This document shows, piece by piece, positions 3,834 to 10,961 of a stretch of DNA of 10,992 nt. The stretch covers positions 1-10,992 of the forward strand of contig CATPBU010000235.1 in the NCBI GenBank assembly GCA_955652455.1. Reading direction: 5' to 3'. A program made the translations under genes and the position numbers. The stretch's first letter is position 1, and the number at the start of each line of letters is the position of its first letter. Below the pieces are notes generated by a model, which did not search any database, was not told the origin of the DNA, and saw only the letters and a program-made list of their open reading frames with translations. This DNA is from Candidatus Dormiibacterota bacterium (GTDB lineage: Bacteria; Chloroflexota; Dormibacteria; UBA8260).

Positions 3834-6350
3834 TCAGTCGCTTGGGGTTGTGTCGACGACAGCCGCTGTCTCGGCGTGGCCGTTGACACCCTGCGCGACT
3901 CGGACCTTCTCGAGGTACTCGGCGACGAGGCGCCGTGCGGTCGCCTCGTCGCCGACGCTGGCGACGACGTGGTATGAGGGCTCGTCGGGGTCGGGGCGCA
4001 CCAGGACGAAACCACCGTCAACGAAAACCTTGAGACCGTCGACGAGGTCGACGTTCTGGCCGTGGTGATCCTCGAGCAACCGGCGCATCACCTTGCCCTT
4101 CGCCTCCCAAGGGCAGAACTCCGTGGCTGTGATGTAGGTCGAGGTCGGCAGCCGGCGGCGCATTTCGCTCAACGGGGTCTGGAACACGGCGCGCATCTCG
4201 AGCAACTTGACCAGGGTGTACATGGCGTCGTAGGCGCCGAAGAAGTACGGCCAGATGAAGCCGCCGTCGCCGTCCGCGGCCAGGCACGTGCTCGGCGCCG
4301 CCGAGGCACGCAGAACCGCCGAGGCCTCGGCGGGGGTCGCGGTGAACGAACCACCGAGTTCCTCGACCAGGGAGGCGATCCACTGTGGTGTGGTCGCCGG
4401 CGCCAGCACGATGCCAGGATGCGTCTGCATCCACCAGCTGACCAGGACACCGAAGGCTTCGTATGGGGTGAGGACCGTGCCCTCATCATCGATGAAGGTT
4501 ATCCGCTCGCCGGTGGCGTTGATCATGCAGCCCACGTCGGCGTGCACCGTCTTGCTGATCAGCGCCGTCTCGTCGGGCACGGTGCGGTGGTGCGGCTGTT
4601 CGTTGAGGCCAGCGTTGAGCGGGATGGCGGTGACGCCGAGCTCGTTGAGAATTCCCGGCAGCATCATCGACGCATGGCTGTAGTCGTAGTCGATGAGCAC
4701 GCGGAACCTGGCGGACCGGATGGCGGTGGCGTCGACGCTGGTGAGCAGGTGCTGCCGGTACTCGGCCTGAGGATCCAGGTACTCTATGTCACCCATCTCG
4801 TAGAACGCGGCCCGGCGAAAATCCTCGCGGAAGAACAGGCTCTCGAATTTGCGCTCAGCACGCTTGTCGATCTGCAACCCCTCGCCGTCGAAGAATCGGA
4901 TATCGGCGCTGCGCTGGTCGAGCGGTGAGACGAGCACGTGCACCCCGGCGTCGCAGTGGCCGACACGCGTCGCGAACTGGGTGACCGGGACAGGCACCTC
5001 ATTGAGGTCGCGCACGCAGGCGCCCGCACTCATCAGTCCCGACACCAGCGCACGCTTGATCATCCGCGAGCTCCGGGCGTGGTCGCGCGACACAGCGATG
5101 GTGGCGTTGCGCGGAAGCGTGGCGGCGAACGCGGCCCCAAGCCGGGCACAGAACTCCGGGGTGAGTTCGACGTTGATCAGGCCGCCCATGCCGTACGACG
5201 AGAACAGTCCCCGCCGCCACTCCCCTGCCCAGATCACGGACTCGTTGACCGTCGACCCCGGCTCCACCTCCTTGTGCGGCCAGATCTTGACCCCCGAGCG
5301 CACCCGCGAGCCGACACCGATGACGCAGTCGTCGCCGACGACGGTGTTCTCCTCGAGGAGGCTACCGTTCTTGACGGTGACGTTGCGGCAGATGATGCTC
5401 TGGCGGAGCCTGCAGTTCTCCCCGATATAGGAGTGCGGCCAGATCACCGTGTTGGAGACCTTGGCGTTGTCGTCGATGATCGTGTACTTGTCGATGACGG
5501 CGTGGCCGTTGATGAATGCCCCGGCCTTGAGCTTCACCTCGTCACCGATGAAGGCTGGACCCTCGAGCTGCACGCCGATGCCGAACTCGACGCCGTCGCC
5601 GATCCAAACGTTGCCCTCACGCCGGCCCGGGATGTGCAGGCGCACGTTGCCCTCGAGCGCATCCCAGTTGGCCTGCATGTAGGACTGGATCGACCCGATG
5701 TCACACCAGTAGCCCTCGGCGACGATGCCGAATAGGGGCTCCTTCCTGCGCAGCATCCGCGGGAACACATCCTGCGACCAGTCCACTGAGATGTCCGGCT
5801 TGATGTGCTCGAGGACGGACCGCTCGATCACGTAAATGCCAGTGTTGGCGTGGTCGCTGAAGACCTCTCCCCAGGACGGCTTCTCGAGGAAGCGCTTCAC
5901 CCGGCCGTCGGACTCGGTGACCACCACCCCGTATTCGAGCGGGTTGGGCACGCTCTTGAGCACGATGCTGGCATGGCTCTGGCGGCGGCGGTGCTCCTCG
6001 ATCACCCAGGTCAGGTCGAAGTCGGTGAGCGCGTCGCCGCTGATCACCAGGAAGGTGTCGTCGAGCAGGTGAGCGGCGTTGCGGACGCTCCCGGCCGTGC
6101 CCAGCGGCTGATCCTCGACCACGTACTCGACCTGCATGTCGAGGTCGGAGCCGTCGCCGAGGCGGTTGCGGATCTCGGCACCCAGGTACTGCAGGGTGAG
6201 GATCACCTCGGTGATGCCATGGTCGCGGAGCAGCCGGAGGATGTGCTCGACCACCGGTGTCCCCACCACCGGCACCAAGGGTTTGGGGTACTGGCTGGTC
6301 AGGGGCCGCAGCCGCGAGCCCTCGCCGCCGGCCATGACCACCGCCTTCAT
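3834..6350 (-). CDS. Sugar-1-phosphate nucleotidyltransferase / beta-helix / degenerate phosphomannomutase fusion
   Basis: The protein has 838 residues. Residues 1 to about 235 form a nucleotidyltransferase of the mannose-1-phosphate guanylyltransferase / glucose-1-phosphate thymidylyl- or uridylyltransferase type. It has the NTP-binding loop [11 protein letters not shown] (8-18), YPKPL with Lys23, GTAGS (84-88), the metal-binding SGDALTDFD with Asp106, EYGVV, FLEKP, NTGIYV and WCDIGS; all look intact. Residues about 240-375 are hexapeptide repeats of a left-handed beta-helix. From about 390 to 825 the protein follows the phosphoglucomutase/phosphomannomutase fold. Its active-site serine (Ser475 in VSPLD) is kept, but TASHNP is lost. 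The metal loop DGDGDR is NATGER (611-616), and the C-terminal phosphate loop RPSGTEP is RPDPDEP (785-791). The C-terminal half is therefore probably not a normal mutase. Similar fusions are known in cyanobacteria and high-GC bacteria, often annotated as mannose-1-phosphate guanylyltransferase. The expected role is making an NDP-sugar for the upstream glycosyl enzymes; which nucleotide and sugar is not determined. Confidence 0.9.
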
Positions 6351-6441: not shown

Positions 6442-9090
6442 TCAGGGACCGGATCGACGGCGGGCCAGGGCGGCGTCGTAGACCTGGGCGAGCGTTCCCT
6501 GGCGCGGCCTCTGCTCGACGACGGTGGCGACGTGACGGCCGAGATCGATGAGGTCGACCTCGCCCGTGCCGACCCCGCCGACCCCGGCTCCTGCCAGCGT
6601 GGCGGCATCGACAACGTACCCTGGCGACCCGTCGCCGATGCTGAGGACGCTCGCCGGTGGCGAAGGCAGGGTCGCGAGCCGCGCCAGCAGCGCCGCCGTC
6701 TGCCACTCGAAGCCGTGCACGACGTCAGGGGCGAAACCGGTTGCATCGATCAGCGTGCAGGCGAGCACGCAGAACGCGAGGTAGCGCTCGCCGTCATCGA
6801 GGGCGCCGTAGACGGCATCACGATCGAACCAAGCGGGGGCATCGATGCTGAGACTTGGCGTGTTGCTGTCGCCCAGGGCTCCCTGGACAGCTCGCGCGTC
6901 GAGGGTCGAGCCCCAGGCCGAGGCTGCCAGGCGTGCGATGCGCACTCCTGGCGACCGGCCGAACGCCGCGCCGCGGTGATGCGGGATGACGACGACGACG
7001 TCGTGACCCAGCCCGGCGGCGTCGGCCGCGGTCGCGGCGACGAGCGCAGCGAGGTCTCCGGCGACGGCGATAGGTGCGCACTCCGCGGCAACGATCAGCA
7101 CTCGCAGCCGGGAGTCGATGCCGTCGCCGGGGTTGGCCACGTGGAGCGAGCCGTGCAGCGGGACGCGCTCGGTGCCGCGCCCGGCCTCTTCAAGGGTGAT
7201 CGCGAAGTCGAGCAGACCCGTGACCGGCGTGGCGACCGAAAGGCTGCGCGCGGCGCGCTCGACGACCAGGGTGCCGACGGCGCCTGCGTCGATGACCACG
7301 CGGTCAAACCGAGGCGTCCCATCGCCGAAGCGGATGTGCAGGCGACCACCGCCGGCACCGTAGAGAATGCGAGCGACGCTGCTCGCCGGAGGTCGCATCG
7401 CCCCGTACACAGCGCCAACCTCCGCGATCCCGGCGCTCTGCCACTCGAGCGGACCGCGGCTGACGGGGTCGATGCGGCGCAGCGGCGCGCAGTCATGACC
7501 AATCGCGGTCGACGCGATCACCGGCTCGTCGACTCGGGCTGGTACGGCAAGGCCGGCGAGCGTGTGCGCGTTGCGCAAATGGGTGCGGAACAACTCGTCC
7601 CAGGACGCGTCGAACCCGGAGTCGTGGTGCTCGCCGAACCACCAGAACCAATCAGAGGCCTCGGCGATGAGCACCTCGTCCCAGGCTCGGGGATGCGCTG
7701 ACGGAGCATCGATGCCAAGCAGCGTGTCCCGGGTCGCTGCCAGCAGCGTCCACGCCTTCGTATGCGCCTCTTCGCCGATCCATGTGCGCAGGTCGGCGTC
7801 AATCCATGAACCTGTCCACAGAGGTGGTAGCACCCCAAGCGAGGCTTCATTGCCGTCGAGGAAGCTGCCGACGTGGGTGGGCTGCAGCTCGGCGCTCGCC
7901 ACAAGCCCCGCGTACAGCGCCTCCAGGAACGGGGTTGCGTTCTCCGCATAGAAGTCCTTGAAGTTTTCGCCGTCGAGCGCGATCGTCACCAGGGGTGCCA
8001 CCCGGTCCTCGGGCTGGACCTGCGCGATGGCCACCAGCCGCGCCAGCAGGTCCGAGGCCGCCTCCTCGCCCGTCATTGACTGGTACGTGAAGCCGATGAG
8101 GTTGCTCAATACAGCGTCGCGGAACACCAGGGACAGCCCGCTTGCGTCTGTGTGGGCGCGGTACAGCTCTCCGGCGTCACGGGCGCCGTGTCCCAGCGTG
8201 CGGCTCAACACCAGCTCGTCGCTGATCGCAAAGCGCAGGCCACAGCCCCGCATCAGCGCAGCCGCTTGGGGTGACACCGCGCACTCTGGTGGCCACATTG
8301 CCACTGGCCGGCGCCCGACGACGCGCTCGAAGCTGTCGAGGCCGCGGCGAATGTGTTCGAGTGCGTCCCGCTCGGCGCGCAGCGGCGGCTCGGCAAGGGC
8401 GATGCCCGGCGAGGCCACCCCTGCCGACGTCGCGTCGATGAGCAACGGCAGGATGGGGTGGTGAAACGGGCTCGTCATCGGCTCCACCCGTCCGGACGAC
8501 ACCGCGTCCCGGTAAGCCGGGATGACGGCGCGGAGCAACGCCAGCTGGGCGTGGTCGACGGTGTGCTTGTCGTGTTCGGTGAAGCCGCGTCCGCGCTGCG
8601 CGAGCGCCAGCAGCAAGGGGTCGGCACGGATCTGGTCCGGGTCGATCCACGCCAGGAGTGTCCAGAGCTGCAGATCACGGATGTCATCCACTCCGGCCGC
8701 AGCGGCGTCACCGGCGGCGAGACGGTCGACCAGCTCGATGTATGGGGATAGCAGCGCCACGCGGCGCCCGTAGTCGTCGTGCGCCGCGCCCGCCACCAGG
8801 AAGTCCCGTTCGGCCTTGGTCAGCTCGGAAGCGCTGCGCAGGCAGAGGTCGCGATCGGCGTCGGAGACACTGCCGTCGCTGTACAGCTCCAGCTGAGCGA
8901 GCAGGGACGGGACCATGTTGATGGTCACGCGCATCTCCGGGTGGCGCTCGAGCACCTGGAGCATGTGCAGGTAGTCCTTGGCTGCCCGGCGCCGCACCCA
9001 GGGCAGCACGAAATGCCCGGCGACGTCGTCCCGGTACCACGGCTGGTGCATGTGCCAGACAAGCGCGACGGCAAGGGGTCGCGCCGGCAT
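6442..9090 (-). CDS. GH57 alpha-glucan enzyme fused to a truncated starch-synthase (GT5) N-domain
   Basis: The protein has 882 residues. Residues 1 to about 515 form a GH57 enzyme of the amylopullulanase/glucanotransferase type, with the conserved regions in order: HMHQPWY (13-19), SPFHHPILPL (207-216), WPPEC with the likely nucleophile Glu269, IALDGEN with the likely acid/base Asp373, and DWFWWFGEHHDSGFD (480-494) leading to LFRTHLRNAH. The catalytic residues look intact. Residues about 520-655 are a beta-rich linker domain as in amylopullulanases. From residue 661 (RLRVLIVAAECAPIAVAGDL) the chain resembles the start of glycogen/starch synthase. It includes GHDVVVVIPHHRG (695-707) and PDVVHGFEWQTA (788-799), but the KTGG glucosyl-nucleotide loop reads VAGD. 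The chain ends at 882 without the second Rossmann domain, so it cannot be a normal synthase. The start codon ATG shares one base with the preceding stop (TGATG), suggesting translational coupling. It is cytoplasmic with no signal peptide. GH57 enzymes hydrolyse, branch or transfer alpha-1,4/1,6 glucans; which activity applies here is unknown. Confidence 0.9.
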   Translation of the reverse strand: MPARPLAVALVWHMHQPWYRDDVAGHFVLPWVRRRAAKDYLHMLQVLERHPEMRVTINMVPSLLAQLELYSDGSVSDADRDLCLRSASELTKAERDFLVAGAAHDDYGRRVALLSPYIELVDRLAAGDAAAAGVDDIRDLQLWTLLAWIDPDQIRADPLLLALAQRGRGFTEHDKHTVDHAQLALLRAVIPAYRDAVSSGRVEPMTSPFHHPILPLLIDATSAGVASPGIALAEPPLRAERDALEHIRRGLDSFERVVGRRPVAMWPPECAVSPQAAALMRGCGLRFAISDELVLSRTLGHGARDAGELYRAHTDASGLSLVFRDAVLSNLIGFTYQSMTGEEAASDLLARLVAIAQVQPEDRVAPLVTIALDGENFKDFYAENATPFLEALYAGLVASAELQPTHVGSFLDGNEASLGVLPPLWTGSWIDADLRTWIGEEAHTKAWTLLAATRDTLLGIDAPSAHPRAWDEVLIAEASDWFWWFGEHHDSGFDASWDELFRTHLRNAHTLAGLAVPARVDEPVIASTAIGHDCAPLRRIDPVSRGPLEWQSAGIAEVGAVYGAMRPPASSVARILYGAGGGRLHIRFGDGTPRFDRVVIDAGAVGTLVVERAARSLSVATPVTGLLDFAITLEEAGRGTERVPLHGSLHVANPGDGIDSRLRVLIVAAECAPIAVAGDLAALVAATAADAAGLGHDVVVVIPHHRGAAFGRSPGVRIARLAASAWGSTLDARAVQGALGDSNTPSLSIDAPAWFDRDAVYGALDDGERYLAFCVLACTLIDATGFAPDVVHGFEWQTAALLARLATLPSPPASVLSIGDGSPGYVVDAATLAGAGVGGVGTGEVDLIDLGRHVATVVEQRPRQGTLAQVYDAALARRRSGP

Positions 9091-9464
9091 CAGCTGCCGG
9101 ACGCGGAGGGGACGGTGCGGTCCTCCAACCAGCGAGTGAACGCCGCGGCGTCACCGTCGCCGGCAAGGCCGCGGATCATCCCGACGATCACCCCCTGCGG
9201 CGCCAGCAGGATGAGCCTATCGAAGGCCAGCGCGCAATGCAGGATGAGGAGGGCGGTGTGCAGCGGGACCGCTGTGAACGCGTTGCCGCGGAGCAGGGAT
9301 GCGACCAGCGCCGCCGCACGCTCGAGCGCTGTGTCCTGCGTGGCGGCGTCGAGCGCCGCCGCCAACGCGCCGCCATCGACTGGCGGCGGTTCGGCGTCAG
9401 TGAAGCGGCGGGCGGCCACGCGATTGATGAAGCAAAGGTCAGTCGCGGTGAGGCGCGAGCTCAC
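9090..9464 (-). CDS. Doc/Fic-fold protein with a lost catalytic motif
   Basis: The protein has 124 residues and starts at GTG. The layout follows Doc-type Fic proteins: an N-terminal LTATDLCFINR helix (compare the LxxxDLxxIH opening), a middle DGGALAAALDAA segment (compare LxSALxRP), then ERAAALVASLLRGNAFTAVP and LHTALLILHCALAFD. The last part matches the Fic core helix pair in which the motif HxFx(D/E)xNxR is followed by TAL. Here the motif positions read NAFTAVPLH (61-69), so the catalytic His, the acidic residue, Asn, Lys and Arg are all replaced. A conserved-looking tail AAAFTRWLEDR closes the fold. AMPylation or kinase activity is therefore not expected, and a structural or regulatory role is more likely. 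It overlaps the small upstream gene by 4 bp (GTGA) and the GH57 fusion by 1 bp (TGATG), placing it firmly in the carbohydrate operon. Assignment rests on pattern comparison by eye; an unrelated helical protein is possible. Confidence 0.72.
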   Translation of the reverse strand: MSSRLTATDLCFINRVAARRFTDAEPPPVDGGALAAALDAATQDTALERAAALVASLLRGNAFTAVPLHTALLILHCALAFDRLILLAPQGVIVGMIRGLAGDGDAAAFTRWLEDRTVPSASGS

Positions 9465-9616
9465 TGGGTCAGCTCGAACAGCGCGTCCTCGAAGCGCACC
9501 AGGCCACCGACCAGCGTCTCGTCGAGCCCGGCCGTGATCTCGGCACGCGCTGCGATGAGCTCCTCGACGCTCAGGCCGAGCTCGCTGGCGATCGAGGCCA
9601 CACGCCGGTCATCCAC
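9461..9616 (-). CDS. 51-residue helical protein, antitoxin-like partner of the Doc-fold protein
   Basis: This short gene reads from GTG 9616 to TGA 9461. A TAA lies four codons upstream in frame, so GTG 9616 is the only start that can serve. The protein begins MDDRRVASIASELGLSVEEL, is acidic, and is predicted helical. It ends with EDALFELTQ, and no cysteine, membrane segment or signal is seen. The stretch VASIASELGLSVEELIAAR resembles the short helix-turn-helix or degenerate DNA-binding helices of small regulators, but it is too short to assign. Its stop overlaps the GTG start of the Doc-fold gene by 4 bp. That order and spacing (small acidic partner, then Doc protein) is the usual one for phd/doc-like toxin-antitoxin pairs. 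A TAAGCT -10-like hexamer ends 6 bases before the start. I do not recognise the family; the function is unknown. Confidence 0.7.
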   Translation of the reverse strand: MDDRRVASIASELGLSVEELIAARAEITAGLDETLVGGLVRFEDALFELTQ

Positions 9617-9665: not shown

Positions 9666-10961
9666 TCAGCCCGCCGCGGTCGGTTGCGGGACCGCCACGC
9701 GCTGTCGGGCAGCGATGTAGCGCATCCGCTCCAGGAGCCCGTCAATGATCTCCGGCCAGGCGTAGTCGGCGGCGTCCCTGCGTGCCGCAGCGCGGAGGCG
9801 CCGCGAAAGGTCTGGGCGCTCGACGAGCCCGCTGAGCGCGCTGGCCAGCTCGGTTCCCTCGGCCGTCTCGACCACGATGGCGTTGCCGTAGGGGCGGGCG
9901 TATTCCTCGCCGGTGGCGCCGACGACGGCGACGCCTCCGGCGGCCATCGCCTCGAGGCCGACCAGGCCGAAGGGCTCGTGGCCGGAATTGGCGAGAACGG
10001 CGGCCGAGGCAAGCGAGACCGCCGGCAGCACCGACTCGGGAAGGAAGCGGCGCAGGTTGACGATCGCGGCGGTTCCGGTCTCCGACAGCGACCGCGCCAC
10101 GTCGGCCGCGCCCGCGATGGGCTCGTTCCAATCGGCGACGTCGAGGGAGAGCTGGCGGGCGTGACCTAACACGCCGTGACCGAACGATTCGATCCCACCT
10201 CGCATCAGCAGGCGTGCGCGCAGCCCGCGGACGCGCAGCTCGGCAATGGCGTCCAGGCTCTGGTGCCATCGCTTGTCTGGGCTAAAGCGACCGATCTTGA
10301 AGGTCAGACAGGCTGACCCGGCGGCGTCGCTGATCAGCCTGGCCGCGTCCGGATCAACGGGTTGCAGCGCCTCTGCCGGGATGCCGTTGGGGATGACCAC
10401 CGGGTTGACGCCGTGAGGCCACATCAGGTGCTTCATGTAGCGGCTGACCGTTGTCACGGTCGCGGCACGCTCGAGTGCGCGCCAGTTCATGTTGTCGAAC
10501 CCGAAGTGGTTGTTGGCATTCCACAGGATGACGCAGCGGTCGCGCATGCCGATCTCTCGCAACCCGCGGTCGAGGATCTCGACGAAGTCGGCTGTCTGCC
10601 ACTCCTCACACAGGATGGCCAGCACTCGTCCGGCGGCTGCCGCGGGTCGCACCGAACCGTCGCGGATCATCGGTGGCAGCTCGTGCCACATGGTTTCGAT
10701 CTTCTCCAGCTCGCCGTCGTAGACACCGGCCGGGTGGCGGCGGCTCACCGCCTGACAGATCCGCACCAGTCGGACTCCATCAACTGTCTCCTCGGCCGGC
10801 TTGCCGGGGTCACCGACGAAGTAGAGCGAGGTGCGAAAGCCCATCGTTGCGAACGCCCGGCACATCTCCTTGGCCCGAACCCCGAGGCCGCCCGCCTGGC
10901 TGTACTGGTCGGGCCCTTCGAACGAGACCATGACCACGTCGAGGTTGCGAGGAGTGAACAT
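9666..10961 (-). CDS. GT4-family glycosyltransferase
   Basis: The protein has 431 residues with the two-domain GT-B fold. The N-terminal acceptor domain opens with LDVVMVSFEGPDQYSQAGGL, whose Gly-Gly-Leu-Gly loop (24-27) followed by an RAKEMCRAF helix is typical. TVSRYMKHL and VIPNGI (190-194) mark the link between domains. The C-terminal nucleotide-sugar domain starts at FKIGRFSPDKRW (221-232). It contains the retaining-GT4 EX7E motif within HEPFGLVGLEAMA, with Glu329 and Glu337, followed by GGVAVVGATGEEY. All key elements are present, so it should be an active retaining glycosyltransferase that uses an NDP-sugar donor. There is no membrane helix, so it acts in the cytoplasm. Unlike GlgA it is not a GT5 enzyme, though the SQAGGLG loop is reminiscent. 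ATG 10961 is the first credible start; no strong ribosome binding site is seen before it. It is the first gene in the window of the minus-strand carbohydrate operon, 49 bp upstream of the 51-residue gene. Donor and acceptor are not determined. Confidence 0.92.
   Translation of the reverse strand: MFTPRNLDVVMVSFEGPDQYSQAGGLGVRAKEMCRAFATMGFRTSLYFVGDPGKPAEETVDGVRLVRICQAVSRRHPAGVYDGELEKIETMWHELPPMIRDGSVRPAAAAGRVLAILCEEWQTADFVEILDRGLREIGMRDRCVILWNANNHFGFDNMNWRALERAATVTTVSRYMKHLMWPHGVNPVVIPNGIPAEALQPVDPDAARLISDAAGSACLTFKIGRFSPDKRWHQSLDAIAELRVRGLRARLLMRGGIESFGHGVLGHARQLSLDVADWNEPIAGAADVARSLSETGTAAIVNLRRFLPESVLPAVSLASAAVLANSGHEPFGLVGLEAMAAGGVAVVGATGEEYARPYGNAIVVETAEGTELASALSGLVERPDLSRRLRAAARRDAADYAWPEIIDGLLERMRYIAARQRVAVPQPTAAG

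Follow-up and report, generated by a model that had tools for sequence, protein, structure and literature searches.

A Doc-like protein without the Fic/Doc motif and its constant small partner in a glycan operon of Dormibacterota

The Doc toxin arrests growth by phosphorylating EF-Tu, an activity that needs the Fic/Doc motif. Doc is encoded next to its antitoxin Phd, whose helices complete the toxin core, an interaction known as fold complementation, and Phd also carries a DNA-binding domain. Here we describe a related pair of genes in a 10,992-nt stretch of DNA, referred to as the window, from contig CATPBU010000235.1 of a Candidatus Dormiibacterota bacterium (assembly GCA_955652455.1). The second gene of the pair has a GTG start and encodes pDoc, a protein of 124 residues that is predicted to adopt the Doc fold and lacks the Fic/Doc motif, and the first encodes p51, a helical protein of 51 residues that occupies the place of the antitoxin gene. 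An initial annotation of this DNA had described pDoc as a non-catalytic Doc derivative in a carbohydrate operon, and both the open reading frame (ORF) and the sequence NAFTAVPLH at the motif position are present as it reported. We find that the motif is lost in every pDoc family member seen, that p51 accompanies pDoc at every locus with DNA available and that the pair occupies a fixed site between two genes of glycan synthesis.

The pDoc family comprises 127 proteins, the window's own included, with identities to the window's pDoc down to 37%; at E<=0.01 the search for the family yields 208 proteins. Most members are proteins without DNA context, and DNA is available for the window and for seven further genomes, giving eight loci in total. 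The genomes are mostly metagenome-assembled and may be incomplete, so absences in the genome counts that follow are soft. Structure prediction gave a confident Doc fold for pDoc, and the model, compared using Foldseek, shows the Fic/Doc helical core that the initial annotation had expected. In this model a helix spanning residues 67-81 starts at the old motif and is followed by a strand at 84-86 and a further helix at 90-101. The family that most members match is NCBIfam TIGR01550 (DOC_P1), reached weakly by 14 of 52 with a best E of 7.9e-4. Searching 400 genomes of the phylum with the pDoc profile returned 31 matches at E<=1e-3, mostly weak ones to other Fic-family proteins, such as a protein bearing HGFVDGNKRT (E 2.7e-9). 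Ten Fic-family relatives were tested and all ten belong to PF02661. The motif is intact in five of them (L012, L013, L016, L026 and L046), a Fic-family protein of genome G170 reads HGFVDAKKRT, in which AK stands in place of the motif's GN (L045:9102-9503), and the remaining four (L020, L023, L030 and L034) belong to another degenerate Doc-like group. The pDoc profile matches nine of the ten, and it crosses the motif without a gap in each of the eight alignments listed. About eight residues before the motif are absent from pDoc in those alignments that cover this part, a loop which we take to be the counterpart of the target-positioning flap. The gap-free alignments, together with the weak DOC_P1 matches, lead us to conclude that pDoc descended from Doc. 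No paper on the family was found among the matches listed from the open-licence literature. The Joint Genome Institute (JGI) label 'prophage maintenance system killer protein' is attached to 17 of 75 family proteins (P0002-P0075), none of them motif-bearing, which suggests that the label is misleading for this family and probably arose through name transfer.

Because the alignments to motif-bearing Docs cross this stretch ungapped, the replacements can be assigned residue by residue. In the window's pDoc the H has become N61, the D/E A65, the G V66, the N P67, the K L68 and the R H69. The earlier claim that every motif residue had been replaced is correct for these positions and fails for the F of HxF, which is retained as F63 and is found in 112 of the 127 members. 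The loss is no peculiarity of this copy, as none of the 127 proteins carries HxFx[DE]xNxR. Position 61 is H in 22 members and position 65 is D or E in 3, N67 and R69 each occur in none, and no member combines two of these four (H, D/E, N, R). Positions 59, 60, 61, 64 and 65 of the old loop are highly variable, the commonest residue being present in 36-68 of 127, and polar residues such as D9, R20, Q90, E114, D115 and R116 are conserved in 121-127. The succession of helices in the predicted model suggests that the conserved PQG and the old active site lie at opposite ends of the fold. The fold, the motif loss and the operon setting put forward in the initial annotation are thus borne out, and the missing motif suggests that pDoc is also non-catalytic.

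The constant partner of pDoc is p51. The two genes occur together in the window and in all seven related loci, joined by a 4-nt overlap (GTGA or ATGA), and the small gene lies directly upstream of pDoc each time, matching the phd-doc arrangement. Across its members p51 is 50-52 residues long; none of 14 members matches the Phd family, and no DNA-binding family was recognised in p51. In one relative, P0117, p51 and Doc are naturally fused into a single protein. By analogy with Phd and Doc, p51 and pDoc may be related by fold complementation.

The order GT4, p51, pDoc is common to all seven genomes. A GNAT-like gene lies between GT4 and p51 in three of them (G001, L038:9348-9842; G002, L039:8541-8975; G003, L040:7958-8392), and in the window the two are 49 nt apart with no such gene between. 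Downstream, the gene for the NTP transferase/phosphomannomutase (PMM) fusion follows pDoc after 50-134 nt in G001, G412, G218, G004 and G413. The contig of G003 stops inside the GH57 gene, and its transferase gene is on another contig, adjoining the end of a GH57 gene. A first scan of genome contigs had returned four loci, three from Dormibacterota and one from Candidatus Amunia macphersoniae, all in one class, and the host lineage is one of uncultured soil bacteria. Within this class pDoc is patchy, being found in 7 of 110 genomes (G001, G002, G003, G004, G218, G412 and G413) at E<1e-30; two weaker hits (E 1.5e-14 and 2.0e-11) belong to different Fic-family proteins. We also inspected the 20 GT4 loci of the class that, with the seven excluded, are closest to the window's GT4, and found no p51 or pDoc in any of them. 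Both flanking genes are present in 16 of these 20, with no more than 127 nt between their aligned ends in 13 cases. The site accepts other inserts too, since in genome G403 an unrelated ORF of 467 residues on the opposite strand separates GT4 from the transferase (L054:3502-4905).

A tree of GT4 and the transferase (28 rows) places the eight pDoc rows in two supported groups. The presence of pDoc requires two changes on this tree, compared with a shuffled mean of about 7, and none of 500 shuffles was as low. The pair is under purifying selection. Between four loci the nonsynonymous rate (dN) is 0.18-0.34 for pDoc and 0.13-0.37 for p51, with synonymous rates (dS) of 1.03-1.58 and 0.62-0.95, respectively (NG86); dN was lower than dS for each of the 12 pairs tested, and the frames are open in all eight loci.

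Table 1. Coordinates of the pDoc pair, its sequence features and its neighbours in the window.
Feature	Position	Strand	Basis or comment
GT4 glycosyltransferase, constant upstream neighbour	9666..10961	-	domain search
p51, 51-residue helical protein, constant upstream partner	9461..9616	-	in the place of the antitoxin gene
GTGA overlap, p51 stop and pDoc start	9461..9464	-	GTGA or ATGA in 8/8 loci
pDoc, 124 residues, GTG start	9090..9464	-	predicted Doc fold, no Fic/Doc motif
NAFTAVPLH, pDoc residues 61-69	9258..9284	-	replaces HxFx(D/E)GNKR; profile alignment
APQG, pDoc residues 88-91	9192..9203	-	P89, Q90 and G91 invariant in 127/127 members
RWLEDR, pDoc residues 111-116	9117..9134	-	W112 and D115 invariant in 127/127 members
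TGATG junction, pDoc stop and GH57 start	9088..9092	-	3/3 loci where GH57 follows
GH57 domain plus N-terminal GT5 part, facultative neighbour	6442..9090	-	domain search
NTP transferase/left-handed helix/PMM fusion, constant downstream neighbour	3834..6350	-	

Taken together, we consider it probable, with moderate confidence, that a phd-doc-like pair was captured into a glycan operon and exapted there as a non-catalytic heterodimer of Doc and antitoxin that serves as a scaffold or regulator. A toxin-antitoxin pair would have entered the operon in a Dormibacterota lineage, the toxin would have kept its Doc fold while losing the transfer motif and the loop of about eight residues before it, and p51 would have taken the place of the antitoxin. 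The helices of p51 would pack on the Doc core as those of Phd do on Doc, and the resulting complex would transfer nothing and instead bind or organise a client protein, for which the neighbouring GT4 and the sugar-nucleotide enzyme are the most plausible candidates. A more specific version, which we put forward only tentatively, is that the complex is a Fido-fold module recruited to primary glycan synthesis. A conserved surface on the side opposite the old toxin active site would bind either a nucleotide sugar or an enzyme of glycan synthesis, and the complex would set the activity of GT4 or the NTP transferase/PMM fusion. On this version a former toxin-antitoxin pair would now serve metabolism as a subunit, in which the old antitoxin forms the lasting structural half. 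A motif gone in all members seen, a partner that is constant and once fused, and a fixed biosynthetic home would make the family a concrete and testable exception.

Several observations weigh against this interpretation. The pDoc model had no Foldseek match in the PDB at E<=0.001 (best 7.1e-3), and the family profile matched no PDB sequence at E<=10. The window's pDoc alone matched no Pfam or NCBIfam family even at E<=10, and Pfam does not recognise the family, with 0 of 52 members matching Fic (PF02661). In the predicted structure of the P0117 fusion the p51 part is ordered, but the predicted template modelling score (pTM) of 0.85 is an indirect gauge of p51-pDoc packing; one of the five models was poor (predicted local distance difference test score, pLDDT, 69.3), and the alignment used, A4, was picked from several row sets. 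GT4 and the sugar-nucleotide enzyme are putative clients of the complex, and both flanking genes also occur without the pair, GT4 being present in 95 and the transferase in 92 of the 110 class genomes. Within the window's group pDoc evolves faster, with 57-72% identity compared with 77-83% for GT4. Finally, the two changes on the tree are explained equally well by two gains and by a single gain followed by losses. The tree alone cannot decide; we favour a single gain of the pair because the site and the overlap are shared.

The best of the alternatives, which we nevertheless regard as unlikely, is that pDoc is a new enzyme, with an active site formed afresh on the Doc fold by the family's conserved residues, and perhaps uses a nucleotide sugar of the neighbouring pathway. 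The near-invariant polar residues are in keeping with this, as are neighbours that make and use sugar nucleotides, but PQG would sit far from the old active site, at the other end of the fold, and the presumed flap counterpart is missing. A precedent is AvrB, which has no motif and is described in excerpts of PMC10866546 and PMC2686095 as a glycosyltransferase. Less probable still is a role as an immunity decoy, titrating or competing with some component of the active Doc systems elsewhere in the cell. Intact Docs are present in related genomes, and two of the seven pDoc genomes have Fic-family matches elsewhere (two in G001, one in G413). The other five have none, and a decoy would need neither a fixed glycan-operon site nor a dedicated p51. 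A PF02661 scan of these seven genomes did not pick up pDoc itself.

The initial annotation had proposed that pDoc is translationally coupled on both sides and made in fixed ratio with the GH57 fusion. The coupling is present, as the GH57 gene directly follows pDoc in the window, G002 and G003 with a TGATG junction in all three, in addition to the p51 overlap. The partnership with GH57 is not supported. In G001, G412, G218, G004 and G413 the fusion was found neither after pDoc nor anywhere else in the genome (E<=1e-60), so the co-occurrence is not constant. At the same threshold it is present in 59 of the 110 class genomes, 57 of which lack pDoc, and in only two of the seven with pDoc, which makes a general role of pDoc together with GH57 unlikely; that pDoc is a dedicated GH57 subunit is, in our view, very improbable. 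The window's fusion protein (882 residues) stops partway through the GT5 domain, at positions 1-149 of 239, and many of its class relatives occupy open frames some 1,220-1,260 residues long. The end of the fusion may have been lost in the window's lineage. Decay, with pDoc a dead toxin gene awaiting deletion, would account for the lost motif, the patchy distribution and the faster change relative to GT4, but is scarcely credible given 127 proteins that keep invariant residues down to 37% identity, open frames under purifying selection and no broken copies at the site in 27 loci.

The other degenerate Doc-like group comprises L020, L022, L023, L028, L030 and L034 and reads (H/R/Q)PF...NE(A/T)TA instead of HPFxDGNKRTA, with matches near locus position 1300-1760. 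Neighbours were read in L020, L023, L030 and L034, L022 and L028 being represented by protein only. A small ORF of about 72-118 residues precedes the Doc-like gene in all four, with another ORF before it, which belongs to tRNA-synt_2 in each of the three loci tested for it (L020, L023 and L034). The downstream gene encodes an epimerase in two loci (L020 and L034) and a biotin ligase in a third (L023). This group is possibly an independent parallel to p51-pDoc.

Compared with Doc and Phd of phage P1 (PDB 3k33, 3kh2 and 3dd7), pDoc lacks both the HxFx(D/E)GNKR motif and the loop of about eight residues, p51 is not recognised as a Phd-family protein, and the pair has a constant position within a biosynthetic operon. 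A published Fic/Doc tree includes a clade, F6, that is described as having no conserved Fic motif (PMC4454073), a likeness to pDoc. AvrB resembles pDoc in having a Fido fold without the motif (excerpt of PMC2686095), and differs in being injected as an effector and in acting as a UDP-rhamnose transferase (excerpt of PMC10866546); it was not among the matches listed in the structure comparison of the pDoc model. The FIC domain of BepC acts by binding without catalysis, although, unlike pDoc, it keeps most of the motif (HxFxKGNGRxxR) and belongs to a secreted multidomain effector, according to the available part of PMC7842960. Both a binding role and a new enzymatic role for pDoc thus have a precedent in these partial accounts, the first in BepC, which works by binding, and the second in the motif-less glycosyltransferase AvrB.
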